64,000 bases of DNA, from positions 1 to 64,000 of the forward strand of contig CALMRZ010000024.1 of assembly GCA_937872225.1 (NCBI GenBank), written 5' to 3'. How positions within the stretch are numbered: the stretch's first letter is position 1; every line of letters begins with the position of its first letter. The position numbers were made by a program, and so were the translations under genes. Of this stretch, positions 29,270 to 56,967 are shown piece after piece. The notes beneath the pieces are model-generated. The model was not told the origin of the DNA and ran no database searches. It was given only the letters and a program-made list of their open reading frames with translations. The DNA comes from an uncultured Spirochaetota bacterium. GTDB taxonomy: Bacteria > Spirochaetota > UBA4802 > UBA5550.

Positions 29270-29438
29270 CCGGTTATCTCCACAGCGTGGGATACGCGGC
29301 AGTCGCAGCGCAACGCACCGTACTCATAGTCCCCATGGCGCCGATAAAGGCAACAAAAAAACCTTGACAAAAACCGGAGAGACTTACAAAGGATTAAGTC
29401 TGTTTTTTATACGTCATTTCCAATCCGGACATCTTTCC

Positions 29439-30989
29439 ATGAACAGCGATACGGGCGAAATCATCATTGAAGGGCGAAGGCTAACCCTGGGCGAAATACT
29501 AGACGTGGCCCGGGGAAGGCGCGGCGTGGCAATCAGTTCCGACCCAGGTTTTGCCGCGAAGATAAAGCGGTCGCAGGACGTGCTCATGGCAGCCCTTGAA
29601 AAGGGGGCCCCCGTCTACGGCGTCAACACCGGGTATGGAAAGTCATGCGGGAAGCGCATGGCCATGGAAGTGTCGACCAGGAACGGCTCCAACCTCATCA
29701 GGTTTCACGGCTGCGGCACCGGCGCGGCCGTCGGCATCCAGGAAGTGCGCGCGGCCATGCTGACGCGCATCCTCTGTTTTTCCCGGGGATACTCCGGTGC
29801 CTCGATGGAACTGATCCGGCACCTGGCCGAATTCCTCAACCGCGGGATCACTCCGGTCGTGCCCTGCGAGGGATCGGTGGGCGCGTCGGGCGACCTGACC
29901 CCGCTGTCGTACATCGCGGCGGCCCTCATGGGCGAGGGCGAGGTCTTTTACCGCGACAGCCGAGTGCCGGCCGCCGAGGCCCTGCGGCTGGAAGGACTCG
30001 CCCCCTACACCTTCGCGCCCAAGGAACCCCTGGCCATGATGAACGGCACCTCGATCATGACGGGGATCGCTGCCCTGGCCATAGACCGCATGCGCAGGAT
30101 TCTGGATGCGTCGATATGCGCCACGGCCCTCTCCATCCATGCCCTCATGGGCAACGCCCATCATTACGACCCGGTCATTGCCAGGGCAAAGCCACATCCC
30201 GGCCAGGATCATGTTGCGCGGAAAATATCCGAGCTGCTGCAATCCAATGAAGACCACGAGAAGCTGGCGGCCACAACGCTGGAATCCCTCCAGGACCCCT
30301 ATTCCCTCCGCTGCTCGCCGCAGATACTGGGCGTGGCCTACGATGCCCTGGAATGGATCACCCGGTGGGTTGAGATAGAAGCCAACAGCGCCAACGACAA
30401 TCCCCTCTTCGATCCCGACGCCGGGACCGTGCTCATGGGAGGTAATTTTTACGGCGGGCACATCGTCTTTGCCATGGATTCGCTGAAAGCCGCCGTCGCT
30501 TCCGCCGCCGACATGTCCGACCGCCAGGTCGCCCTCATGGTCGACCCCCACGTGAACCGGGGCCTTCCCGCCGACCTGGTGCGGGCGCCCGGCGACGACG
30601 CCATGTACAACCACGGATTCAAGGCCATGTCGATAGCCTCTTCGGCGCTCACCGCGGAGGCCCTGAAGGCCACCATGCCGGCCTCATCCTTCTCCCGCTC
30701 GACGGAATCGCACAACCAGGACAAGGTAAGCATGGGAACCATCGGCGCCCGGGACGCGGCCCGCATATGCGAGCTCACGGAACGGGTCACCGCCATCCAC
30801 CTGCTGGCTGCCGCCCAGGCCTGCGAGATCCGCGGGAACATCGGGACCCGGCCGCGGCTGGCCGCGATACTGGAGAAGATCCGCTCCATGGCCGGCCCGG
30901 TAATAACGGACCGCCCCATGGACAGGGACATAGCCGCTGTCGCCAGGGCGATATCTGACGGCGGCCTCTTCAACCTGGACACGCCATAA
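29439..30989 (+). CDS. Aromatic amino acid ammonia-lyase (HAL/PAL/TAL family)
   Basis: 516 residues. The MIO cofactor triad is A149-S150-G151 in VGASGDLTPLSY. Catalytic Tyr60 (VYGVNTGYG) and the Asn of MMNGTSIMTG are present. The family removes ammonia from His, Phe or Tyr to give urocanate, cinnamate or coumarate. Selectivity residues are mixed: F89-H90 in NLIRFHGCG combines a PAL-like Phe with a HAL-like His. The C-terminal motif is ESHNQDKVSMG, closer to PAL/TAL (HNQD) than to HutH (NQEDHVSM). No other hut genes are nearby. I therefore do not call it hutH. Lipid-linked GT2 and LpxL-like genes follow within 5 kb. Confidence 0.93.
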   Translation: MNSDTGEIIIEGRRLTLGEILDVARGRRGVAISSDPGFAAKIKRSQDVLMAALEKGAPVYGVNTGYGKSCGKRMAMEVSTRNGSNLIRFHGCGTGAAVGIQEVRAAMLTRILCFSRGYSGASMELIRHLAEFLNRGITPVVPCEGSVGASGDLTPLSYIAAALMGEGEVFYRDSRVPAAEALRLEGLAPYTFAPKEPLAMMNGTSIMTGIAALAIDRMRRILDASICATALSIHALMGNAHHYDPVIARAKPHPGQDHVARKISELLQSNEDHEKLAATTLESLQDPYSLRCSPQILGVAYDALEWITRWVEIEANSANDNPLFDPDAGTVLMGGNFYGGHIVFAMDSLKAAVASAADMSDRQVALMVDPHVNRGLPADLVRAPGDDAMYNHGFKAMSIASSALTAEALKATMPASSFSRSTESHNQDKVSMGTIGARDAARICELTERVTAIHLLAAAQACEIRGNIGTRPRLAAILEKIRSMAGPVITDRPMDRDIAAVARAISDGGLFNLDTP

Positions 30990-33779: not shown

Positions 33780-34523
33780 ATGAACAAAGGGAGATTTGCG
33801 GTCATCATACCGGTATACAACCATGAACAGCGCGTGGCGGACGTGGTCCGCAGCGCCCTGAAACTAGGGTTCCCAGTCTATGTCGTGGACGACGGCTCCA
33901 CCGACGGGACATATGATAAAATTAAAAGCATGGCGGTCGAAATCATCCGCCATGAAAAAAACAGGGGCAAGGGCGCGGCCTTGAAAAGCGGTTTCGCCGC
34001 CGCGGCGGAAAAGGCGGACTGGGCCATAACCATAGACGCCGACGGCCAGCATGACCCGGACAACGCCCTGAACCTCATACGGGCCATACCCGACAACGCC
34101 CTGGGGAAAAAACCACGGCCTATCGTAATCGGCATGCGGGAGAACATGGTGGGGGACGACGTGCCCTGGACCAGCCGTTTCGGAAGGAAATTTTCAAACT
34201 TCTGGGTATGGTCCTCGGGCGGCCCCCGGGTGATGGATTCACAGAGCGGCTTCCGCGTATACCCCCTGCCCCAGAGCGCGAAGATGAAGGTGAGGGCCAA
34301 CCGGTTCCAGTTCGAGGTGGAAATCCTGGCCAAGGCCGGGTGGAACAGGTTCCCCGTCATCGAGGCCCCGGTCAGCGTGAGCTACACGCCGGGCACGCCG
34401 CGCATATCCCACTTCAGGCCCTTCGTTGATTTCTGGAGGAATTCCGGGACTTTCATGCGTCTCATATTCCAGCGGATCCTGATCCCGCGGTTTATCAGGA
34501 GGAAAATCTGGTATAAAGAATAA
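33780..34523 (+). CDS. Family 2 glycosyltransferase
   Basis: 247 residues, GT-A fold. It has the nucleotide-binding start FAVIIPVYNHEQRV, VVDDGSTDGT, KNRGKGAALKSGF, the metal-binding DADGQHDP, and DSQSGFRVY. It lacks membrane segments, apart from a short basic, hydrophobic C-terminus. The size and motifs match dolichol-phosphate-mannose-synthase/ArnC-like and small lipid-linked GT2 enzymes. It is followed by an LpxL-like acyltransferase. That pairing, often fused, is seen in aryl polyene and flexirubin clusters. Confidence 0.93.
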   Translation: MNKGRFAVIIPVYNHEQRVADVVRSALKLGFPVYVVDDGSTDGTYDKIKSMAVEIIRHEKNRGKGAALKSGFAAAAEKADWAITIDADGQHDPDNALNLIRAIPDNALGKKPRPIVIGMRENMVGDDVPWTSRFGRKFSNFWVWSSGGPRVMDSQSGFRVYPLPQSAKMKVRANRFQFEVEILAKAGWNRFPVIEAPVSVSYTPGTPRISHFRPFVDFWRNSGTFMRLIFQRILIPRFIRRKIWYKE

Positions 34524-34655: not shown

Positions 34656-35537
34656 ATGATACAACTCTTCTACAAATTCATCACCTTCTTCTCCCGCCTC
34701 CTCGGTCCCTGGTTCTTTATGGTCTTTTCCCGGTTTGTCTCCACCGGCTACTTCATCCTTTTCCCGAAGCGGGTCGCCATCGGCATGCGCTTCTACGGCG
34801 CCCTGTTTCCGGAGAGGGGCGGGCTCTACCATCTCTGGTGCACCTGGCGGCAGTTCCACAGCTTTACCGACGTCTTCCTTGACCGGTTCCTCCTCCAGTT
34901 AAAGGGAGATATGTCCTATACTTCCGAGGGGTGGGAGCTCATCGAAGAAGCGGTCAACAAAAAGACCGGCGGCATCATAGTCATGTCCCACATGGGGAAC
35001 TGGGACGTGGCGGCCCACCTTCTGCGGAAGAAGGGCCTGCGGCTCCTGCTGTACATGGGGTCCCGCGAGAAGGAACAGCTTGAAAAAATGCAGAAGGAGA
35101 ATCTCGCCGAACAGGGCCTGAAGATCGTGGCCGTCGAACAGGACGGAGGGTCCCCCTTTGACATCCTGGAGGGACTGAATTTCCTCAAGGAGGGGGGGCT
35201 CGTCACCCTCACCGGCGACCGGGCCTGGTCCGCGGCCCAGCGGACCGTCACCGTGGACTTCCTGGGGCACCGCGTGTCCCTGCCGGAAGCCCCCCACAGC
35301 ATTGCGCTCATCTCCGGCGTGCCCCTCTATATCTTCTTCGCCTTCCGCACCGGCAGGGGGACGTACCACATGTCCCTGTCGGGGCCCATTGCCGTGAGCG
35401 CCGCGTCCCGGGCCGATAGGCCCGGGGCGATCCGGGAATCGGCCCAGCGCTACGCGGACATCCTCGCGGCAAAGGCCCGGGAATATCCGCGGCAATGGTA
35501 CCACTTCGAAGAGTTCCTCGGACCGAAATGCGGCTGA
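34656..35537 (+). CDS. LpxL/HtrB-like acyltransferase
   Basis: 293 residues. Hallmarks of the lysophospholipid/lipid A acyltransferase family are the H-x4-D/E motif in VMSHMGNWDVAAHLL, the block DGGSPFDILEGLNFLKEGGLVTLTGDRAW, and LPEAPHSIALISGVPLYIFF. A hydrophobic N-terminus (FITFFSRLLGPWFFMVFSRFVSTGYFILF) anchors it to the inner membrane. Such enzymes use acyl-ACP to acylate lipid A precursors, ornithine lipids or polyene lipids. Proximity to a GT2 and an ammonia-lyase suggests a specialised lipid rather than standard lipid A. Confidence 0.92.
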   Translation: MIQLFYKFITFFSRLLGPWFFMVFSRFVSTGYFILFPKRVAIGMRFYGALFPERGGLYHLWCTWRQFHSFTDVFLDRFLLQLKGDMSYTSEGWELIEEAVNKKTGGIIVMSHMGNWDVAAHLLRKKGLRLLLYMGSREKEQLEKMQKENLAEQGLKIVAVEQDGGSPFDILEGLNFLKEGGLVTLTGDRAWSAAQRTVTVDFLGHRVSLPEAPHSIALISGVPLYIFFAFRTGRGTYHMSLSGPIAVSAASRADRPGAIRESAQRYADILAAKAREYPRQWYHFEEFLGPKCG

Positions 35538-48754: not shown

Positions 48755-49678
48755 ATGATAAAGATAGAGCGTCTGCACAAAGCGTATGATGATGTTACCG
48801 CCCTGGACGGAATTGACCTATGCATCAGCGAGGGATCGATAACGGGCCTCCTTGGTCCCAACGGGGCCGGTAAAACGACCCTCGTGTCTATCCTGACAGG
48901 GATAATAAAAAAAAACAGCGGCAAGGTAACCATACAGGGTTTCGACCTGGACAACGATCTTGGCGGGATACAATCGATTACCGGCATGGTCCCCCAGACG
49001 CTTGCCATCTATCCCCTGCTGACATCCTACGAAAACCTTGAATACTTCGGCGCCCTCTACGGCCTCAGGGGCAGTAAATTGAGGGAACGCATTGATTTCT
49101 CAATCGAGGTCGCGTCCCTCAAGCCATTTCTGCACAGACGCGCCGGGAAATGTTCCGGCGGCATGCAGCGAAGGCTGAATCTCGCCATCGGGATGCTGAA
49201 TGATCCGAAAATACTGTACCTTGACGAGCCCACCGTGGGGGTCGACGCCCAGTCCCGGCAATACATGCTGGACATGATACGCAGCATTAATATCGAGCGT
49301 CACACGACCATCATCTATACCTCCCATTACATTACCGAGATCGAACAGATATCTGACGAAATCGTCATGATCGATAACGGCAAAATCATTCTGAGCGGAA
49401 AAAAAGAAGAGATATTATCCGCCAGTGACACCCTGGCTATTCATGCAAAAGTGCCGGACGTTGCCATTCTTGAGCAGATAAAAAACGTACCCGGCGTGAC
49501 TATAGTGGCAGACACTGTCTATATTGACCGCAATGAACATCTCAGCAACAACATCATTCAAGCCATTACATTGCTGCGGGATAATAATATCAATATAACC
49601 AATATTCAATTCAGCGGCAACAGGCTGGAAGAGCTCTATCTGCATCTTACCAGCGCCAGCCTGAGGGATGACCAATGA
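48755..49678 (+). CDS. ABC transporter ATP-binding protein
   Basis: 307 residues from the ATG at 48755 (GGGGAGGGG upstream). Walker A GPNGAGKTT, signature CSGGMQRRLNLA, Walker B ILYLDEPTVGVD and the H-loop SHYITE are intact. The ~80-residue C-terminal extension is typical of CcmA/DrrA-type exporters. It powers the ABC-2 permease encoded next (4-base overlap). It is the first gene of the six-gene ketosynthase operon; TTGACA at 48673 is a possible -35 box. It probably exports the product of the operon. Confidence 0.95.
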   Translation: MIKIERLHKAYDDVTALDGIDLCISEGSITGLLGPNGAGKTTLVSILTGIIKKNSGKVTIQGFDLDNDLGGIQSITGMVPQTLAIYPLLTSYENLEYFGALYGLRGSKLRERIDFSIEVASLKPFLHRRAGKCSGGMQRRLNLAIGMLNDPKILYLDEPTVGVDAQSRQYMLDMIRSINIERHTTIIYTSHYITEIEQISDEIVMIDNGKIILSGKKEEILSASDTLAIHAKVPDVAILEQIKNVPGVTIVADTVYIDRNEHLSNNIIQAITLLRDNNINITNIQFSGNRLEELYLHLTSASLRDDQ

Positions 49679-50889
49679 ACAGACTATTGTATATAATTAA
49701 GAAAGAAATTACCGAGTTAACCCGCGACATACAAACGTACGTGCTGCTGATTGTGATGCCGTCGGCCTTCATCCTGGTCATGTCCCTGTCAATGCAGGCA
49801 TTGTTTCAATCCAATCAGAACTTCACCGTCAATACAATCGTTGCCGACAACAGTAACAGCAATGAATCGAAGCGATTTATTGACGCATTGCGGAAAATTG
49901 AAAATCTTTCCATCACTGAACCGGCAACCAGCCTTACCCACGAAGCCGTCTCCGGTAATGTTCAATCTGGCCGATATAAATTCGGCCTGGTTATCAACCC
50001 GTCCTTTTCCCAATATGTTAAAGACATAAAGACTGGACCTGATACGACACCCGTGACCCTCCATATCGATCCGTCAATGCAGACATCTGTCCAGATCGGC
50101 CTAACCCAGCAGATGGAACAGCAGCTTATTATTTTAAGGCTCAATGCTTTTTATGACAATTACGCCGCGGTTCTGGCATATGCCGGTTTCTCAAGAAGCA
50201 GCATCGTCCCCTCTGAAAAGGGCGTTATAAAGACCGAATTTGTGTATAAGGACAGCAGTGAGTCGATCAAGCCAAACGCGGCCCAGCAGAGCGTGCCGGC
50301 ATGGCTTGTTTTCTCAATGTATTTTATCACCATTCCCATCGCCCTGGTGTTCCACACCGAAAAGAGCAATGGAACATATCAGCGCATCCGAAGCATCAAT
50401 ATTCGAAGCCATTATCTTATAGCCGGCAAGATGGTGTCCTATTACATACTCAGCATGATACAGGTCGTCGCGATGCTCTGCGTCGGCCGCTACGTGGTTC
50501 CACTCCTGGGAGGCGACACCATCCAGTTTGGCAATTCTTACTTCGGTCTTTTCGTTATCGCGTCCTGCACATCGGTCAATGCCATTTCCTATGGACTTCT
50601 GGTGTCTTCTTTTTCAAAAAACACCCAGATGGCCGGGGCCATGGGAGCTGTCCTCGTTATCATTTTTGCCGCCATCGGCGGCATCATGGTGCCTAAATTC
50701 ATCATGCCGAAAAACCTTCAGCTGCTTACGAATATATCACCCCTTTCTTGGGGAATGGAGGGGTTCCTTGATATCATGCTCCGGAAAGGGTCTCTCATTG
50801 ACATCATCCCGGAATGCCTGCTCCTCCTCGGGGCAGGATTGCTTATGCTTTGTATTACCGGACTAATCTTAAGAAAAAAAATATATTAA
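49675..50889 (+). CDS. ABC-2 type permease
   Basis: 404 residues. One N-terminal membrane helix (YVLLIVMPSAFILVMSLSMQALF) is followed by a ~180-residue periplasmic domain, then five C-terminal helices (WLVFSMYFITIPIALVFH, MVSYYILSMIQVVAMLCVG, AGAMGAVLVIIFAAIGGIMVP, CLLLLGAGLLMLCITGLIL and one more). This is the YhhJ/YbhR-type architecture of ABC-2 exporters. The start overlaps the ATPase stop (ATGA). The ACP gene begins 13 bases downstream. Confidence 0.94.
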   Translation: MNRLLYIIKKEITELTRDIQTYVLLIVMPSAFILVMSLSMQALFQSNQNFTVNTIVADNSNSNESKRFIDALRKIENLSITEPATSLTHEAVSGNVQSGRYKFGLVINPSFSQYVKDIKTGPDTTPVTLHIDPSMQTSVQIGLTQQMEQQLIILRLNAFYDNYAAVLAYAGFSRSSIVPSEKGVIKTEFVYKDSSESIKPNAAQQSVPAWLVFSMYFITIPIALVFHTEKSNGTYQRIRSINIRSHYLIAGKMVSYYILSMIQVVAMLCVGRYVVPLLGGDTIQFGNSYFGLFVIASCTSVNAISYGLLVSSFSKNTQMAGAMGAVLVIIFAAIGGIMVPKFIMPKNLQLLTNISPLSWGMEGFLDIMLRKGSLIDIIPECLLLLGAGLLMLCITGLILRKKIY

Positions 50890-50902
50890 GAAAAGGACAG
50901 CC

Positions 50903-51169
50903 ATGAAAGGATCACTGGATGAAAGACTCAAAACAGAATTAAAGGAACTGATCATCGCTGAGTGCGACCTGGACATCGGCACGGACGAAATCGGCGATGA
51001 CGACACACTTTTCGGGTCGGATTCCCCCATCGGCCTTGACTCGGTCGATGCCCTGCAAATTTCCATTGCCGTGCAGAACAAGTACGGCGTGGTCATCACC
51101 GACAGCAAGGTTCTGAGAAGGGTAATGAAAACCATCAATACCTTCGCAGATTACATTCAGCCGGAGTGA
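50903..51169 (+). CDS. Acyl carrier protein
   Basis: 88 residues. The phosphopantetheine attachment Ser47 lies in IGLDSVDALQI, as in acyl carrier proteins. The acidic helices II-III follow (VDALQISIAVQNKYGVVITD). The stretch DDDTLFGSDSPIGLDS is typical of specialised ACPs in polyene or polyketide loci. It sits between the exporter and the ketosynthase with 1-13 base gaps, so it carries the growing or finished acyl chain of this pathway rather than serving bulk fatty acid synthesis. Confidence 0.95.
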   Translation: MKGSLDERLKTELKELIIAECDLDIGTDEIGDDDTLFGSDSPIGLDSVDALQISIAVQNKYGVVITDSKVLRRVMKTINTFADYIQPE

Positions 51170-51170
51170 C

Positions 51171-52334
51171 ATGGCCATGGAAAAGGTATTCATACGCGGA
51201 TCGGCAGTCACCTGTTCCCTGGGCCATGATATGGACGACATCATCGCCCGCGTTAAACGCAAGGAATGCATGACGACCAGCCTTCCGATCCGCATCGCGT
51301 CGCTGGATTACACGCGGCCCTATTATCGCATTCCCGGCGGTGAGGAACGGAACAAGGACCTGGAAGGCTATTTTTACGATGTGCTTCACAATACAGTTTC
51401 CCGGGCCATCGACGATTCCGGCCTCTCCGCAGAAGAGATTCGTCAAAGCGCTCTGTTTTTCGGCTCAACTTCAATAGACATGCCCATGTTCGAGACAACC
51501 TACCGCCGTGACGGTGAAAACGGCACAAAGAGGCTTTCCTACGAGTCCCCGGGATACGGCAAAATCGCCGCCATTGTCGCCGAACGATTCAATGTCAGCG
51601 GGCCTTGCTACACCTTCACCACCGCCTGCACCTCCAGCGCGAACTGCCTTCTCTATGCCTCGTCCATGATCAGGACGGGGCAAATCGAGCGGGCGATAGT
51701 AATCGGGTATGACCTCTTCAACGAGGTCGGCTTCTACGGCTTCGAGTCGATGAAGCTCATCGAACCCTTCGCCTATAAGCCCTTTGACAAGAACAGGATC
51801 GGCATAATCATGGGTGAAGGATGCGGTGCCGTGGTTCTGGACGGAAAGCGGGGCGTGGACCATGGATTCCGCTTCCTCGGCGGTTCCAATGCCTGTGACA
51901 CCTTCAACGTCACCACCCACAACATAGAGGGAGATGACATCGCCTTCGTGATCGGGGACGCCCTGAAAAACAGCGGCCTGACCATCCATGACATTGACGC
52001 GGTAAAGGCCCACGCGACCGGGAGCCCCGCCAACGACATCACGGAATTCAACGGCATGAGAAAAGCCTTCGGCGATTCACTGCCCCCCTTTACCGGGATC
52101 AAGCCCTTTATCGGCCACACCGTTGGGGCTTGCGGTGTGATCGAACTCATCATAATAACAGAGTGCGTCAACCGCGGGTTTTTCCCTGCCACCCCGGGGT
52201 TCGAGCAGGTTGATGAGGAAATAAACGCCCGCCCCATTACTGAAGCCCTGGACATGTCCAGGGGCACCGTCATGCTTAATTACTTCGGCTTCGGCGGTAA
52301 CTGCACATCGTATATAATCACCAACAAGGAATGA
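51171..52334 (+). CDS. Beta-ketoacyl-ACP synthase (catalytically complete)
   Basis: 387 residues, FabF-like thiolase fold. The active-site triad is complete: C153 in TFTTACTSSANC, H282 in VKAHATGSPANDITE and H317 in IKPFIGHTVGACG. FGFGGNCTSYII at the end is the usual glycine-rich motif. It condenses an acyl group with malonyl-ACP. It starts 1 base after the ACP stop and precedes a Cys-less partner, the arrangement of KS-CLF pairs in type II polyketide and aryl polyene systems. It is slightly short (FabF ~410 residues). Confidence 0.95.
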   Translation: MAMEKVFIRGSAVTCSLGHDMDDIIARVKRKECMTTSLPIRIASLDYTRPYYRIPGGEERNKDLEGYFYDVLHNTVSRAIDDSGLSAEEIRQSALFFGSTSIDMPMFETTYRRDGENGTKRLSYESPGYGKIAAIVAERFNVSGPCYTFTTACTSSANCLLYASSMIRTGQIERAIVIGYDLFNEVGFYGFESMKLIEPFAYKPFDKNRIGIIMGEGCGAVVLDGKRGVDHGFRFLGGSNACDTFNVTTHNIEGDDIAFVIGDALKNSGLTIHDIDAVKAHATGSPANDITEFNGMRKAFGDSLPPFTGIKPFIGHTVGACGVIELIIITECVNRGFFPATPGFEQVDEEINARPITEALDMSRGTVMLNYFGFGGNCTSYIITNKE

Positions 52335-52339
52335 TCATC

Positions 52340-53209
52340 ATGTATGTCCATGCCGTTTCACCATTCATCTGCGATCCCTTAGACAATATTGACGGTTTGA
52401 AGGCGGACCTGAAAAACTACACCGACTTCTTTTTCCGCAGAGTGAACAAGTTTATCCTCCTCTCCCTCATGGGGGTGCACCGCTGCGTCCATGGAAAGGA
52501 GATTGATAAATCCATTGCCGTGTATCTTGCCACGGAGAACGGCAATCTGGGCGACACGGAAAACGTCCTGCACCAGATGTACCGGGAGAACTCCTTCCCC
52601 AAGCCCTTCAACTTCATCAACACCATGAGCAATACAGCTTCTTTTTATGTGGCGCAGAGCCTGAAATCCCTGGGAAGAAGCATCACAGTCTCGAGTAAAA
52701 ACGTTTCCTTTGAACGGGCCTTGGAGCTTGCGATGGTTGACTTCAAGCAGGGCCAGGTCAAAGAGGCCCTGGTGGGGGGCGTTGACGAAGCAGTACTATC
52801 CCGGGAATATTTTATGGAGAAATACGATCAAGCCTATCATGATGTCAAGCTGGTGGAAGGAAGCGGATGGCTTTACCTTACCGCTGACGCGGCAGGGGCT
52901 CTGGGAAAAGTGGATGACGTGCGAACCTTCGAGGACCGGGATGAAGCCATCAAATGGACACACGACAATGCAGGGACCGGCTTCACTATCGCCTTCGGGA
53001 TACTCATGACGCCGCAGGAAAAGGAGATATGGAAGAAGGCCTGCACCCCGAAGGAGGAGCTTGATTATATCGGCATGAACGGTTTTTATGATACCGCCGC
53101 CGCTTTCGCGGTAAGCACATTCTTTGGGACATGCAAAGAGAATGCCCTGGTTCACATAAACAGGAACACCCAGGGTCAGTATGTAATCATTTTATGCAGC
53201 AGGGGATGA
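52340..53209 (+). CDS. Ketosynthase-like protein lacking the active-site Cys (chain-length-factor-like)
   Basis: 289 residues. It resembles the N-terminal half of ketosynthases: AVYLATENGNLGDTENVL, PKPFNFINTMSNTASFYVAQSL and ALVGGVDEAVLS. The nucleophile region reads NTMSNTAS, with no Cys, and the second-half His motifs are not recognisable. This is what is expected of a chain-length factor or structural partner of the KS encoded just upstream. I chose the ATG at 52340 because AAGGA is 8 bases before it; the ATG at 52331 overlaps the KS stop but has no room for a ribosome-binding site. Confidence 0.82.
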   Translation: MYVHAVSPFICDPLDNIDGLKADLKNYTDFFFRRVNKFILLSLMGVHRCVHGKEIDKSIAVYLATENGNLGDTENVLHQMYRENSFPKPFNFINTMSNTASFYVAQSLKSLGRSITVSSKNVSFERALELAMVDFKQGQVKEALVGGVDEAVLSREYFMEKYDQAYHDVKLVEGSGWLYLTADAAGALGKVDDVRTFEDRDEAIKWTHDNAGTGFTIAFGILMTPQEKEIWKKACTPKEELDYIGMNGFYDTAAAFAVSTFFGTCKENALVHINRNTQGQYVIILCSRG

Positions 53210-53213
53210 TATA

Positions 53214-54026
53214 ATGGGACGCCTCATTTCACGCGGAGAAGGACGCACCGCCCTTATAACCGGCGCATCGAGCGGCATCGGAGCCGCCTTCGCAGACCGC
53301 CTGGCCGGGAAAGGCTTCAATTGCATCCTGGTGGCGCGCCGCACCGATGCAATGAAAGAGCTCGCGCGGCATCTAGAGGACACGCACCACGTTTCCGTCA
53401 ATGTGCTGACTGCCGATCTATCAACCGACGCCGGCATAGCAGCGGTTGAACGGCGCATCAGCGATGATTCCTCAATCGACGTACTGGTGAACGCCGCAGG
53501 ATTCGGCATGCGCGGCATGTTCGCGGAAACTGATCCCCGGAAAATTGAATCGATGATAATCCTTCACGCCCTGGCGACGGCCCGTCTCTGTCGCGCGGCA
53601 CTTCCCGCGATGATACGGAACCGGCGCGGATGGATTATCAACGTTTCATCGATGGGTGCCTATTTCACCGCGCCTCACTACGTGACTTACTCGGCGACGA
53701 AGTCATTCATCACCATGCTTACCCGGGGACTCCGCTCCGAGTTGGTCGGCACCGGAGTGCGGGTACAGGCCCTCAGCCCCGGCCTCACCCGCAGCGAATT
53801 TCTCTTTACCGATGAATTCAGGGACATCAATTACAACAATATACCGTTCTTCTTCTGGATGTCGGCCGACACCGTGGCACGCAAGTCCCTCGCGGCACTT
53901 CGATGGAACCGGGCTGTCGTGGTACCCGGGCTGGGCAACAAGCTGTGGGTGATCTACATGAAACTGCCCGTCATCGGACCGTTGTTCCAGTGGATGATGG
54001 GCCGCCTCGCCGGTGCCTCGTATTAA
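53214..54026 (+). CDS. Short-chain dehydrogenase/reductase
   Basis: 270 residues, classical SDR. Cofactor motif TGASSGIGAAFA, NAAGFGM (the NNAG equivalent), Ser in NVSSMGAYF and the catalytic YSATK are all there. The C-terminal ~40 residues are hydrophobic (LWVIYMKLPVIGPLFQWMMGRL), as in membrane-associated SDRs acting on lipids. The arginine-containing RRTDA after beta-2 favours NADPH. It ends the operon; it probably reduces the 3-keto group formed by the KS. The start is 4 bases after the preceding stop. Confidence 0.93.
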   Translation: MGRLISRGEGRTALITGASSGIGAAFADRLAGKGFNCILVARRTDAMKELARHLEDTHHVSVNVLTADLSTDAGIAAVERRISDDSSIDVLVNAAGFGMRGMFAETDPRKIESMIILHALATARLCRAALPAMIRNRRGWIINVSSMGAYFTAPHYVTYSATKSFITMLTRGLRSELVGTGVRVQALSPGLTRSEFLFTDEFRDINYNNIPFFFWMSADTVARKSLAALRWNRAVVVPGLGNKLWVIYMKLPVIGPLFQWMMGRLAGASY

Positions 54027-54069
54027 TCAGACCGCGCTGAGCGCCGGAGATGCAGGAAAGATGACTATA

Positions 54070-55089
54070 TCATTTCCACTTGATTTTTTTCAGCATCAGA
54101 TATACATCTTTCTCCGCTTTCGCGCATTTCCTGAAGGCGGCGGCTATCGGGATCGTGTCTATTGATCCCGCTTTTTCACTGAAGGCTTTGGCGCACCCCA
54201 GTGCCGCCTGCCGCCACAGGTCGCCGACGGCAACCATTTTCCGGGAAGCCTCCAGAAGCTCAGGCATCCCCAGCAGCTGCGAGGCCTCCTTTAGAAAGGC
54301 CGCATATATGAAGCGGAACCCGCCGCCGCCGGTACCCACCTCTTCCTGGAAGGTCATGATGTTTCCCAGGTAATTCTTCACGTACTTTGTGTCGGGGGAG
54401 CCGTTCAGTTTTTCTATCCTTCTCGCCATGGTATAAATAGCCTTGATCCCGACCCAGGGCATCATCGGCTGCAGCATCATGGTAACGCTCTTCTTTATCG
54501 CTTTCCTGATCGCCTTGCGGTAATCGATCGTTTCGGGAAAATATTCCGGATAAAAGCAGTAGCCCTTGGGGGCGTTCTGCCCCAGGGCAAAGCGGGCCTT
54601 CCGGACCTGGTCACGGGTCACCCTGGTCGTATACTCGAAAATAGGATCGCTCACCAGGTACTCATCCCCCTCCCGGCCGTAGATTATTGTGGTGTGGGCA
54701 TTAAAGGGCATATTAAAATCGGGACAGAAATACGCGAGAAAACTCGCCGATACCTGCAGGCCCACCGGCTTTCCCCCGTCCAGCAGATCGTCCAGCTCCT
54801 TCATGGCGACATCCTGGTCCTTATAGGTCCTGGTGAAGAACCGGATTCCCAGGTTCTTCTGCACCCCGTTGATGATGCTGCGGGGCATCATGCGGTATGA
54901 TATGAGGGGCATCCCCCATACCTTGACAAAGGGGAAGTAGATGAACATGATGCTGTTGGATACGCCAAAAGCCATGGGCTCTGAGAGGTCCAGGCCGTAA
55001 TTGGTAACCAGTGACGAGACGCCGGCCGATTCACAATGCCCGCCCTGGTAATGCGTCCATTCAACGTTTTGCTGCAGTTTATGGTTCAT
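54070..55089 (-). CDS. BtrH-like papain-fold acyltransferase, copy 1
   Basis: 339 residues. The N-terminal half has the layout of the BtrH N-terminal domain: Cys19 in YQGGHCESAGVSSLVTNYG, LSEPMAFG, His132 in FNAHTTIIYGR and Asp148 in YLVSDPI form a likely Cys-His-Asp triad. The C-terminal ~150 residues are helical (DUF4872-like), containing the Gly-rich EEVGTGGGGFRFIYAAFL. BtrH moves an acyl group from a carrier protein to an aminoglycoside, so an acyl acceptor role with the ACP at 50903 is plausible. The start overlaps the stop of the 134-residue gene (ATGA). It converges on the SDR gene. Confidence 0.88.
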   Translation of the reverse strand: MNHKLQQNVEWTHYQGGHCESAGVSSLVTNYGLDLSEPMAFGVSNSIMFIYFPFVKVWGMPLISYRMMPRSIINGVQKNLGIRFFTRTYKDQDVAMKELDDLLDGGKPVGLQVSASFLAYFCPDFNMPFNAHTTIIYGREGDEYLVSDPIFEYTTRVTRDQVRKARFALGQNAPKGYCFYPEYFPETIDYRKAIRKAIKKSVTMMLQPMMPWVGIKAIYTMARRIEKLNGSPDTKYVKNYLGNIMTFQEEVGTGGGGFRFIYAAFLKEASQLLGMPELLEASRKMVAVGDLWRQAALGCAKAFSEKAGSIDTIPIAAAFRKCAKAEKDVYLMLKKIKWK

Positions 55090-55490
55090 AGGAGTCCCTT
55101 TTTAAAATTCTTTATGGTGTCGAGGTCAACGAGGAGGACCGTGGCGTACGTCTGGAGTGTCGCGTCATCCAGCTGTTCGAACCCCCGGGGATCGAAATGC
55201 TTTTTTACCTTTCTCTGCGACAGACCGGTCATCTGGGCCAGGGTCGAAAGTTCCATGTAGGCCCGGTGCATGAAATACTCGATGGGCGATGTCTGTCCCC
55301 TTTTCACCCGCTCCTTTGCGTCCTCGGCGCGGGCATCAAAATCCTCTCGGAGATTTATGAGGGCCCGGTATCCCGGCTCCCAGCCATTGGATCCGACCTT
55401 GACGAACTCGCCGTTGTCATCAACGGCATACTGCACCATCCTGGTGCGCATGGTTCTTTTGCCATCTTGAGGAACTTCATTGACTTTCAT
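55086..55490 (-). CDS. Helical protein coupled to BtrH-like enzyme, copy 1
   Basis: 134 residues, cytoplasmic. It begins MKVNEVPQDGKRTM, then YAVDDNGEFVKVGSNGWEPGY. Its last ~65 residues (YFMHRAYMELSTLAQMTGLSQRKVKKHFDPRGFEQLDDATLQTYATVL) look like a helix-turn-helix of the Xre/Cro type. It could be a DNA-binding regulator, an adaptor, or the acceptor for the acyltransferase; I cannot decide. It is coupled by an ATGA overlap to the 339-residue gene. AAGGAG precedes the ATG. About half of its positions match copy 2. Confidence 0.82.
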   Translation of the reverse strand: MKVNEVPQDGKRTMRTRMVQYAVDDNGEFVKVGSNGWEPGYRALINLREDFDARAEDAKERVKRGQTSPIEYFMHRAYMELSTLAQMTGLSQRKVKKHFDPRGFEQLDDATLQTYATVLLVDLDTIKNFKKGLL

Positions 55491-55549
55491 TTCCGGCTCC
55501 TTGTTTATGCAGAAATCAGCGTCGCTTCAATTACATAATGTACATAATG

Positions 55550-56566
55550 CTATTTCCACTTTATCTTTTTCAACAGCAGGTATGCCTCTTTCTCTTCCAT
55601 GGCGCATTCGCGGTATAATTGGGCCGTCTTCTCCAAGTCAACGTCATCGGTTTTTCCCTGGATGAATTTCCCGCATGATGAAGCGGCAAGCCTCCACTTG
55701 TCGCCGATGGCCACAAATTTTTTCGAGGCTTCCAGCAGTTCAGGGATCTTCAGCAGGTCATAGGCTTCCCTGAGGAAGGCTGCGTACATGTACCGGAACC
55801 CCCCTCCGCCGGTGCCGACCTCCTCCTGAAAAAGAACAATGTGATAGAAGAGCCCTCTCACGGCCTTTATGTCCGGATTTTTCCGGAGCCGCTTTACCAT
55901 CCTGGCAAAGGTTTTCATGCCCAGGACTCCGTAATAGGGAAACATAGGCTGCAGCATCATGAACAAAACACGCTTAATCGATTTTTTTACCGCTTTTTTA
56001 TAATCTACTGTTTCAGGAAACTCGAGAGGATAAAACATGAACCCCTTTGGCGCAGTGGGCCCTTTGGAAAAACGGGCATTCTGAAGATCTTCACGATGGA
56101 CCCTTGTTTGATGGTCCCACAGGGGATCGTTGATCAGGTATTCATCCCCTTCCCTGCCGGTGACAATGGTCATGTGGCTGTTGTTGGGAATGCGGAAATC
56201 CCCCAGAAAATATCTGAGATATGCCACGGAAGCCTGGATACCCACCGGCTTGCCTTCATCCAGCAGCCGGTCCAGTTCATCCATGGCTTCCTGCTCATTA
56301 TTGTATGTCTTGATGCAGAATTTGATTCCCAGGCGCTTCTGCACTCCCCTGACTATGCTCTGCGGAAGCATCCGCCACGCAAGGAGGGGCCGACCCCAAA
56401 TTTTGACAAAGGGCAGATACACGAAGCCGATATTACTCGAGATACCGAAGGCCATGGGCTCAGATAGATTAAAGCCGTAATTGGTTACGATTGAAGAGAC
56501 AGAGCCCGATTCGCAGTGCCCCCCCTGGTAGTGTTTGTATGGTTTCTGCGCTATTGCTTTTTTCAT
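55550..56566 (-). CDS. BtrH-like papain-fold acyltransferase, copy 2
   Basis: 338 residues, clearly a paralogue of the 339-residue protein over its full length. The triad is conserved as Cys18 (YQGGHCESGSVSSIVTNYG), His131 (NNSHMTIVTGR) and Asp147 (YLINDPL). EEVGTGGGGFRYMYAAFL and the C-terminal LLKKIKWK are the same as in copy 1. It overlaps the 133-residue gene by one base (TAATG). The pocket-lining stretches after the His differ (YGREGDEYLVSDPIFEY against TGREGDEYLINDPLWDH), so the two copies may use different acceptors. Confidence 0.88.
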   Translation of the reverse strand: MKKAIAQKPYKHYQGGHCESGSVSSIVTNYGFNLSEPMAFGISSNIGFVYLPFVKIWGRPLLAWRMLPQSIVRGVQKRLGIKFCIKTYNNEQEAMDELDRLLDEGKPVGIQASVAYLRYFLGDFRIPNNSHMTIVTGREGDEYLINDPLWDHQTRVHREDLQNARFSKGPTAPKGFMFYPLEFPETVDYKKAVKKSIKRVLFMMLQPMFPYYGVLGMKTFARMVKRLRKNPDIKAVRGLFYHIVLFQEEVGTGGGGFRYMYAAFLREAYDLLKIPELLEASKKFVAIGDKWRLAASSCGKFIQGKTDDVDLEKTAQLYRECAMEEKEAYLLLKKIKWK

Positions 56567-56967
56567 TACAGGGTACTCTTGAATTTTTTTATAGTTTCAA
56601 CGTCGGTGTGAAGAACATGGGCGTACCGGGCAAGGGTCTTATCATCCAGCTTTTCAAATCCCCGAGGTGTTAAATGCTTTTTCACTTTTCGCCATGGCAT
56701 CCCGGTAAATTGGGCCAGGCCGATAGGATCCAGAAATGCCTTGTACATGAAGTATTCAAGCGTTGATGACTGACCGTTCTTGACTTTTATCTTTGCCTCT
56801 TCGGCCAGTTCGGTGAATTCTTTCTGAAGATTGAGCCCCGCATAGTATCCCGGGTCCCATCCATCTGATTGAACTTTTTCAAATTTTCCCTCGTCGTTCT
56901 CCGCGTAGTGGACCAAGGTCGTTTTGAGCATTCGTTTGCCGTCCTGGGGAACTTCTTTTAATTTCAT
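56566..56967 (-). CDS. Helical protein coupled to BtrH-like enzyme, copy 2
   Basis: 133 residues. It begins MKLKEVPQDGKRMLKTTLVHYAENDEGKF and ends with the same helix-turn-helix-like region as copy 1 (LAQFTGMPWRKVKKHLTPRGFEKLDDKTLARYAHVLHTDVETIKKF). The ribosome-binding site TTTAACAGGA before its ATG is also found before the broken copy at 60.9 kb. It is the first gene of the four-gene minus-strand unit; its stop and the next start share one base. Confidence 0.84.
   Translation of the reverse strand: MKLKEVPQDGKRMLKTTLVHYAENDEGKFEKVQSDGWDPGYYAGLNLQKEFTELAEEAKIKVKNGQSSTLEYFMYKAFLDPIGLAQFTGMPWRKVKKHLTPRGFEKLDDKTLARYAHVLHTDVETIKKFKSTL

Follow-up and report, generated by a model that had tools for sequence, protein, structure and literature searches.

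A putative dar-type esterification and export module without DarA and DarB in a dispersed aryl-polyene-type locus of an uncultured spirochaete

Gene content and conservation of the ten-gene unit

The window analyzed here comprises bases 1-64000 of a contig (C24; 110,504 bases) in the 4.69-Mb assembly (G000) of an uncultured Spirochaetota bacterium and carries ten adjacent genes in two convergent groups (Table 1). Judged by the families to which its proteins belong, this unit is a dar-type module composed of an ATP-binding cassette (ABC) exporter, DarF-DarI, an acyl carrier protein (ACP), DarC, a pair of proteins resembling a ketosynthase (KS) and a chain-length factor (CLF), DarJ-DarK, two DarG-DarH pairs, and one non-conserved short-chain dehydrogenase/reductase (SDR). 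In other bacteria, the dar gene set accompanies the esterification and export of aryl-polyene pigments of yellow-orange color. The module sits inside a dispersed aryl-polyene (APE) locus of the flexirubin/APE type that is without the resorcinol-forming enzymes DarA and DarB.

All ten open reading frames described in a sequence-only reading of this DNA are present in the open reading frame list at the same places and on the same strands, and the six genes of the plus strand are as tightly spaced as that reading had said, with junctions of -4, +13, +1, -4, and +4 bp. The phosphopantetheine-site serine proposed for the ACP, Ser47, is correct, as is the KS cysteine, C153; the two KS histidines, given as H282 and H317, are each shifted by one residue and are in fact H281 and H316. 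The two small genes that had been left unnamed encode DarG-family proteins, both above the NCBIfam cut-off for NF053536 (70 bits), and both larger proteins of the minus strand exceed the 300-bit cut-off of DarH_acyl (NF053550). Between genus members, dN values of 0.04-0.38 stand against dS values of 0.9-2.5, and every gene tested is under purifying selection.

The relatives with matching loci are metagenome-assembled genomes (MAGs) of Spirochaetes and, in addition, a Deltaproteobacteria-type MAG (G393), whose phylum is called the second phylum below. All genomes compared are draft assemblies; gene calls beyond the window edge come from a simple script, so that errors are possible in some starts and short genes, and some short genes were missed at some second-phylum sites. 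Searched with a profile of the KS partner, 5 of 393 Spirochaetota genomes give strong matches, namely the own genome, G003, G004, G005, and G010. A scan of named genomes for this protein had given at least four loci; the exact peptide patterns used there underestimate its spread, and profile searches gave more. The block of two ABC genes, ACP, KS, and KS partner adjoins DarG-DarH genes in all five of these genomes and in many second-phylum genomes, which bears out the predicted linkage of the carrier, KS, and exporter genes with the BtrH-like genes. The DarC-like ACP is 82-93% identical in relatives.

Two features of the window are not shared in this way. The SDR gene is missing from the syntenic site in all four Spirochaetota relatives and was therefore rejected as part of the operon core, leaving a five-gene core of what had been described as a six-gene operon. 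Likewise, DarG-DarH is doubled in G000 and G005, as had been noted for the window, but a single pair stands at the site in G003, G004, and G010, and the doubling was discarded as a defining feature. Two of the six genus members lack the whole unit. In one genome without it, G001, the flanking polyene-type genes, a B12 protein, the carboxylase, the biotin ligase, the glycosyltransferase, and the ammonia-lyase are kept and no module gene is found, which argues that the module is gained and lost as a whole. A second, isolated KS and KS-partner pair of the same family, with no ABC, ACP, or DarG/DarH neighbors, is seen in G010 (C248:16366-18399).

Table 1. Genes of the module and of the surrounding locus (positions in contig C24; the window covers positions 1-64000)
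Feature	Position	Strand	Evidence or remark
DarF-like ABC transporter ATPase	48755..49678	+	PF00005 1.3e-28; first gene of unit in 5 Spirochaetota genomes
DarI-like ABC-2 permease	49675..50889	+	PF12698 2.2e-28; 4 bp overlap with ATPase gene
DarC-like ACP, Ser47	50903..51169	+	PF00550 1.2e-6, PRK09184-like
DarJ-like KS, C153-H281-H316	51171..52334	+	PF00109/PF02801
DarK-like Cys-less KS partner (CLF-like)	52331..53209	+	PF00109 N-domain only
SDR oxidoreductase, co-directional, non-conserved member	53214..54026	+	PF00106 2.3e-44
DarH copy a (BtrH-type acyltransferase)	54070..55089	-	NF053550 387 bits
DarG-family partner copy a	55086..55490	-	NF053536 125.6 bits
DarH copy b (BtrH-type acyltransferase)	55550..56566	-	NF053550 358 bits
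DarG-family partner copy b	56566..56967	-	NF053536 113 bits
Aromatic amino acid ammonia-lyase, likely polyene starter enzyme	29436..30989	+	PF00221 533 bits; sole genome copy
GT2 glycosyltransferase	33780..34523	+	homologue of E. coli APE cluster GT2 protein, 88 bits
Lipid A-type acyltransferase	34656..35537	+	similar to same E. coli APE GT2 protein, 39 bits
Probable biotin ligase (sequence reading)	from 41281	+	beside carboxylase; both adjoin module in G003 and G005
Single-chain biotin carboxylase-biotin carboxyl carrier protein-carboxyltransferase, 1954 aa	42282..48146	+	adjoins unit in G000, G003, G005; without unit in G001
LolA	66911		E. coli CFT073 APE homologue
Ketoreductase (KR)	67668		E. 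coli CFT073 APE homologue
Dehydratase (DH)	68402		E. coli CFT073 APE homologue
ACPs	68992, 74807		E. coli CFT073 APE homologues
Fused KS-CLF	69285 (69.3-71.4 kb)		E. coli CFT073 APE homologue
B12-binding radical S-adenosylmethionine (SAM) protein	71430-72776		directly after fused KS-CLF; TIGR04072 rSAM_ladder_B12 383.7 bits, cut-off 360
Polysaccharide deacetylase-methyltransferase fusion	72773-74248	+
Small hotdog protein	74383		E. coli CFT073 APE homologue
Further radical SAM genes	75146, 76291, 88220
Thioesterase	82414		E. coli CFT073 APE homologue
PS-DH-type dehydratase/4'-phosphopantetheinyl transferase fusion	82872-84374	+
FabD	85820
AMP-ligase	86746		E. coli CFT073 APE homologue

The DarG-DarH and ketosynthase pairs

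BtrH_N proteins are placed near the papain-like C39/C70 families, and BtrH itself is an ACP:aminoglycoside acyltransferase (PMC10318531). Both BtrH-like proteins of the window carry BtrH_N and DUF4872 domains, recognized by Pfam and NCBIfam with E-values far beyond chance, as are the families of the six plus-strand proteins. His132 and Asp148 are invariant in 30 DarH homologues, and Cys19 is found in all 28 that have a complete start, a Cys-His-Asp pattern that would be expected of a papain-like acyltransferase. The AlphaFold model of DarH has a predicted local distance difference test score of 57 and is too poor for use, a sequence search of the PDB returned nothing for it, and a tblastn search against plasmids gave just distant BtrH-like proteins, with less than 30% identity among the matches listed. 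DarG has no Pfam domain above threshold, and its two copies match NCBIfam's flexirubin DarG model below that model's cut-off. The C-terminal half of the DarG AlphaFold model is confident and weakly resembles XRE-type helix-turn-helix proteins (best E 3e-3), from which DarG may be a partner or a regulator.

The two pairs differ in their conservation. Copy b is the one kept in all relatives that have the unit, and its DarH is 62-84% identical in G003, G004, G005, and G010; the nearest counterpart of copy a is found in G005. Two to three DarH copies are also found in G623, G705, and G741. A further, divergent DarG-DarH-ACP set lies on another contig of the same assembly (C46:120509-122270), near genes for a β-ketoacyl-ACP synthase III (KAS III), a FabD-like protein, a FabF-type KS, a thioesterase, and a B12-radical SAM protein. 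This set is present in G001, G002, and G004, and, as judged from a DarG match, in G003; in G010, it stands after an ABC transporter pair. It is spread more widely than the module of the window.

The KS of the window forms a clade with KS proteins of both darB-containing and darB-less operons (Shimodaira-Hasegawa-like approximate likelihood ratio test support 99-100) and stands apart from E. coli FabF, ApeR, and the fused APE-type KS-CLF, as well as from the remaining KS proteins of its own genome. The tree comes from a quick search, with some long branches flagged and no Azoarcus or Bacteroidota rows. An ordinary FabF was thereby ruled out, in agreement with the separation from FabF that had been expected. 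The KS partner is confirmed to be Cys-less, as alignment places Asn where the active-site Cys would be. It is referred to as CLF-like because of its homology with the fused KS-CLF of the same contig, whose C-terminal half it matches (hhalign 97.5%); a comparison with ApeC alone was non-significant. For the KS partner, the PDB search yielded no meaningful match, and PADLOC matched neither it nor DarG.

Second-phylum operons and the surrounding polyene-type genes

The KS partner is present in 15 of 395 genomes of the second phylum. Five of these (G610, G484, G614, G535, and G769) have the DarG/DarH, ABC, ABC, ACP, KS, and KS-partner genes immediately downstream of a DarA-like gene and a KAS III gene. 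The cut-off of the StlD/DarB model is 450 bits, and these KAS III proteins lie above it, at 598 bits for G610, 569 bits for G614, and 571-610 bits for the other three genomes; the KAS III of G440 scores 557 bits and contains one in-frame stop. A second group of operons, in G424, G524, G623, G644, G705, and G741, lacks a local darB and has between one and three DarG/DarH genes. Strong DarB matches lie elsewhere in G424, G623, G644, and G393, so the local absence of darB is not proof of its absence from a genome.

None of the five Spirochaetota genomes with the module has a DarB over the cut-off or any KAS III above 113 bits, and the best KAS III of the own genome reaches 99.6 bits. For DarA, the own genome gives no match to a profile with which G610 reaches 590 bits, although this profile, built from five similar proteins, is narrow and could miss a diverged DarA. 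The unit of the window is a member of the dar accessory module and does not represent dialkylresorcinol (DAR) biosynthesis as defined by DarA and DarB. The B12-radical SAM protein encoded at 88.2-89.6 kb of C24 was considered as a replacement for DarA and DarB because a 65-69% homologue stands directly after the KS-partner gene in six operons without local darB. It was rejected, as it occurs in all genus members, those without the module included, as homologues of 37-50% are found in most DarB-bearing genomes, and as G010 has no orthologue. The protein tracks the wider lipid cluster.

The genes around the module resemble those of an aryl-polyene-type pathway. KS-CLF, KR, DH, ACPs, AMP-ligase, and LolA are all present, scattered over 33.8-88.1 kb without a compact cluster. 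The ammonia-lyase reading frame reaches 29136, and its roughly 97 extra N-terminal residues are unseen in relatives, such that the true start is probably near 29436. Its motif 2 contains the Gln (NQD) of tyrosine and phenylalanine ammonia-lyases rather than the Glu of histidine ammonia-lyases, by the rule given in PMC3992019. The best model is tyrosine ammonia-lyase, with a score below the cut-off; the FlxA tyrosine ammonia-lyase equivalog gives 311 bits against a cut-off of 700. The LolA2-flexirubin-like protein of the contig scores 117 bits, just under its cut-off of 125. Homologues of the lipid A-type acyltransferase stand beside DarG-DarH in G644, G623, G705, and G741, and the single-chain carboxylase is a probable source of malonyl-CoA. 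MMPL proteins are encoded on other contigs and none on C24.

Interpretation and comparison with known systems

Taken together, these findings favor the reading that the ten genes serve esterification and export as a dar-type module within an aryl-polyene (flexirubin-family) pathway whose acceptor is probably something other than a resorcinol, and we hold this to be the best account of the locus, with fair confidence. We propose the following sequence of events. The ammonia-lyase would provide a cinnamate- or coumarate-type starter, which the AMP-ligase would activate, and the type II fatty acid synthase (FASII)-like enzymes encoded at 66.9-86.7 kb would extend it to an (aryl-)polyenoyl chain on the ACPs, using malonyl-CoA from the neighboring carboxylase. 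DarC and DarJ-DarK would make or hold an acyl chain, the catalytic Cys of DarH would serve, with DarG assisting, to pass an acyl group on from the ACP to an acceptor bearing a hydroxyl or amine, and DarF-DarI would move the product across the inner membrane. The acyl donor is probably an (aryl-)polyene, a polyene-type chain being likelier than a short chain because aryl-polyene genes lie on the same contig, and, with DarA and DarB missing, a dialkylresorcinol is improbable as the acceptor.

Several observations weigh against this reading, among them the narrowness of the DarA profile mentioned above. The ammonia-lyase and the AMP-ligase are below all equivalog cut-offs, so that an aromatic starter is not proven. 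The FASII-like genes between 66.9 and 89.6 kb are also similar to the FASII clusters with radical SAM enzymes described in Desulfotalea and Kuenenia (PMC2649909), and the chain could for that reason be a non-aryl polyene. G010 has the unit, yet it shows no match to the fused KS-CLF. In the flexirubin pathway, the ester-forming step is assigned to another gene, FlxW (PMC3992019). The accessory genes of the Azoarcus dar operon are described by domain only (PMC3949708); the likeness to that operon is one of domains and gene order, not of protein sequences, and is backed by the second-phylum operons. No published in vitro activity was found for any module member.

Two other explanations are about equally improbable. 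In the one proposed by the sequence-only reading, the unit is a stand-alone pathway: KS, partner, and SDR build a short β-hydroxy or β-keto chain on the ACP from precursors of primary metabolism, the BtrH-like proteins transfer it, and the ABC proteins export the product. The linkage of ACP, KS, Cys-less partner, transferase, and exporter as one unit is what such a pathway would show, but the SDR is not conserved, and second-phylum relatives carry the unit within darAB operons. The premise that CoA ligase, acyltransferase, dehydratase, and thioesterase are lacking holds inside the coordinates of the unit and fails on the contig, where they lie mostly beyond the right edge of the window. Borrowing from primary metabolism is likewise unsupported: between 29 and 90 kb, the contig carries the ammonia-lyase, AMP-ligase, FabD, dehydratases, thioesterase, KS-CLF, LolA, and carboxylase, which would cover the starter and its activation, malonyl transfer, dehydration, the thioesterase step, and transport to the outer membrane in an aryl-polyene pathway.

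In the other, which we also judge unlikely, the product is still a resorcinol-type ester, and DAR comes from enzymes that have diverged or are unlinked, the KAS III at C46:131143 being a candidate. The best family of that protein is StlD/DarB, at 84-100 bits, and its locus is conserved with the third DarG-DarH-ACP set; the second-phylum genomes with a distant DarB (G393, G424, G623, and G644) offer a precedent for unlinked enzymes. In the same search, however, bona fide DarB proteins score 510-610 bits and Spirochaetota KAS III proteins 99-113, G005 has no KAS III even at this lower level, and the DarA profile finds no match in the own genome. That the unit is the non-functional remnant of a dar operon that lost its resorcinol genes is very doubtful: DarA and DarB are indeed missing and two genus members are without the unit, but all reading frames are intact, the active sites are conserved, dN is far below dS, and DarG-DarH has been duplicated rather than lost in G000 and G005.

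If the unit is a dar-type module of an aryl-polyene pathway, a version free of DarA and DarB separates two halves of the pathway, in that the role of DarG, DarH, DarC, DarJ, DarK, and the exporter would not need resorcinol formation. The ABC, ACP, KS, and BtrH-like genes of the described dar clusters carry domain names only (PMC3949708), and this separation opens the acyl-transfer role of DarH to direct test. With this version, the module reaches into uncultivated spirochaetes, and rules for finding clusters that depend on the resorcinol enzymes would probably overlook loci of this kind. More tentatively, DarA/DarB-free dar modules of anaerobic-type spirochaetes, and possibly of some second-phylum genomes, may esterify radical-SAM-modified (aryl-)polyenes to a non-resorcinol acceptor; if so, they would define a new class of pigment or membrane lipid, with DarH as a general ACP-to-acceptor acyltransferase.

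The DarH proteins share with butirosin BtrH (PF14399) the papain-like BtrH_N domain and the conserved Cys-His-Asp residues, but they pass the DarH cut-off, and no aminoglycoside biosynthesis genes were seen in the gene calls and scans made around the unit. A butirosin-like reading was thus excluded, as the sequence-only reading had held; its companion claim, that the locus is unrelated to aryl polyene or flexirubin clusters, did not stand, as the unit is the DAR-side module of those clusters. The APE cluster of E. coli CFT073 has homologues on the contig for KR, DH, KS and CLF (fused on C24), ACPs, thioesterase, LolA, GT2, and AMP-ligase. It has no dar module; the C24 genes are spread over about 60 kb, and no MMPL exporter gene is found in the stretch of C24 that was read. 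The flexirubin clusters of Chitinophaga pinensis and Flavobacterium johnsoniae (PMC3992019) share with the contig an aromatic ammonia-lyase, AMP-ligase, FASII-like polyene genes, LolA, polysaccharide deacetylase, acyltransferase, and glycosyltransferase. In comparison, the contig has no DarA or DarB, has extra radical SAM enzymes, and scores under the flexirubin-specific equivalog cut-offs.

A published counterpart is found in Azoarcus sp. BH72, which makes arcuflavin, an aryl-polyene/dialkylresorcinol hybrid (PMC3949708). Its dar operon contains darA, darB, darD (conserved hypothetical), darE (BtrH-like), and darF (ABC ATPase), followed by a PilT/Phd pair, darI (ABC permease), darC (ACP), darJ (KS), and darK (hypothetical) (PMC3949708, Table 1). 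Azoarcus DarD and DarE seem to be the counterparts of what NCBIfam names DarG and DarH. The small protein, BtrH-like protein, ABC ATPase, permease, ACP, KS, and further protein thus form the same set in the same order, in a genome that also has aryl-polyene genes; by annotation, the deacetylase-methyltransferase fusion of C24 matches the separate Azoarcus genes arcN and arcM. The window differs in that it is without darA, darB, and the PilT/Phd pair, has darD-darE doubled and convergent on the rest, and has an extra SDR. The operons of G610, G484, G614, G535, and G769 likewise have all module genes in the same order, with a KS in the clade of the window KS, and differ in carrying darB (569-610 bits), a DarA-like gene, and a single DarG-DarH pair. 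The gene set had been called undescribed; it is instead a spirochaete variant of the already known dar set rather than a new system.

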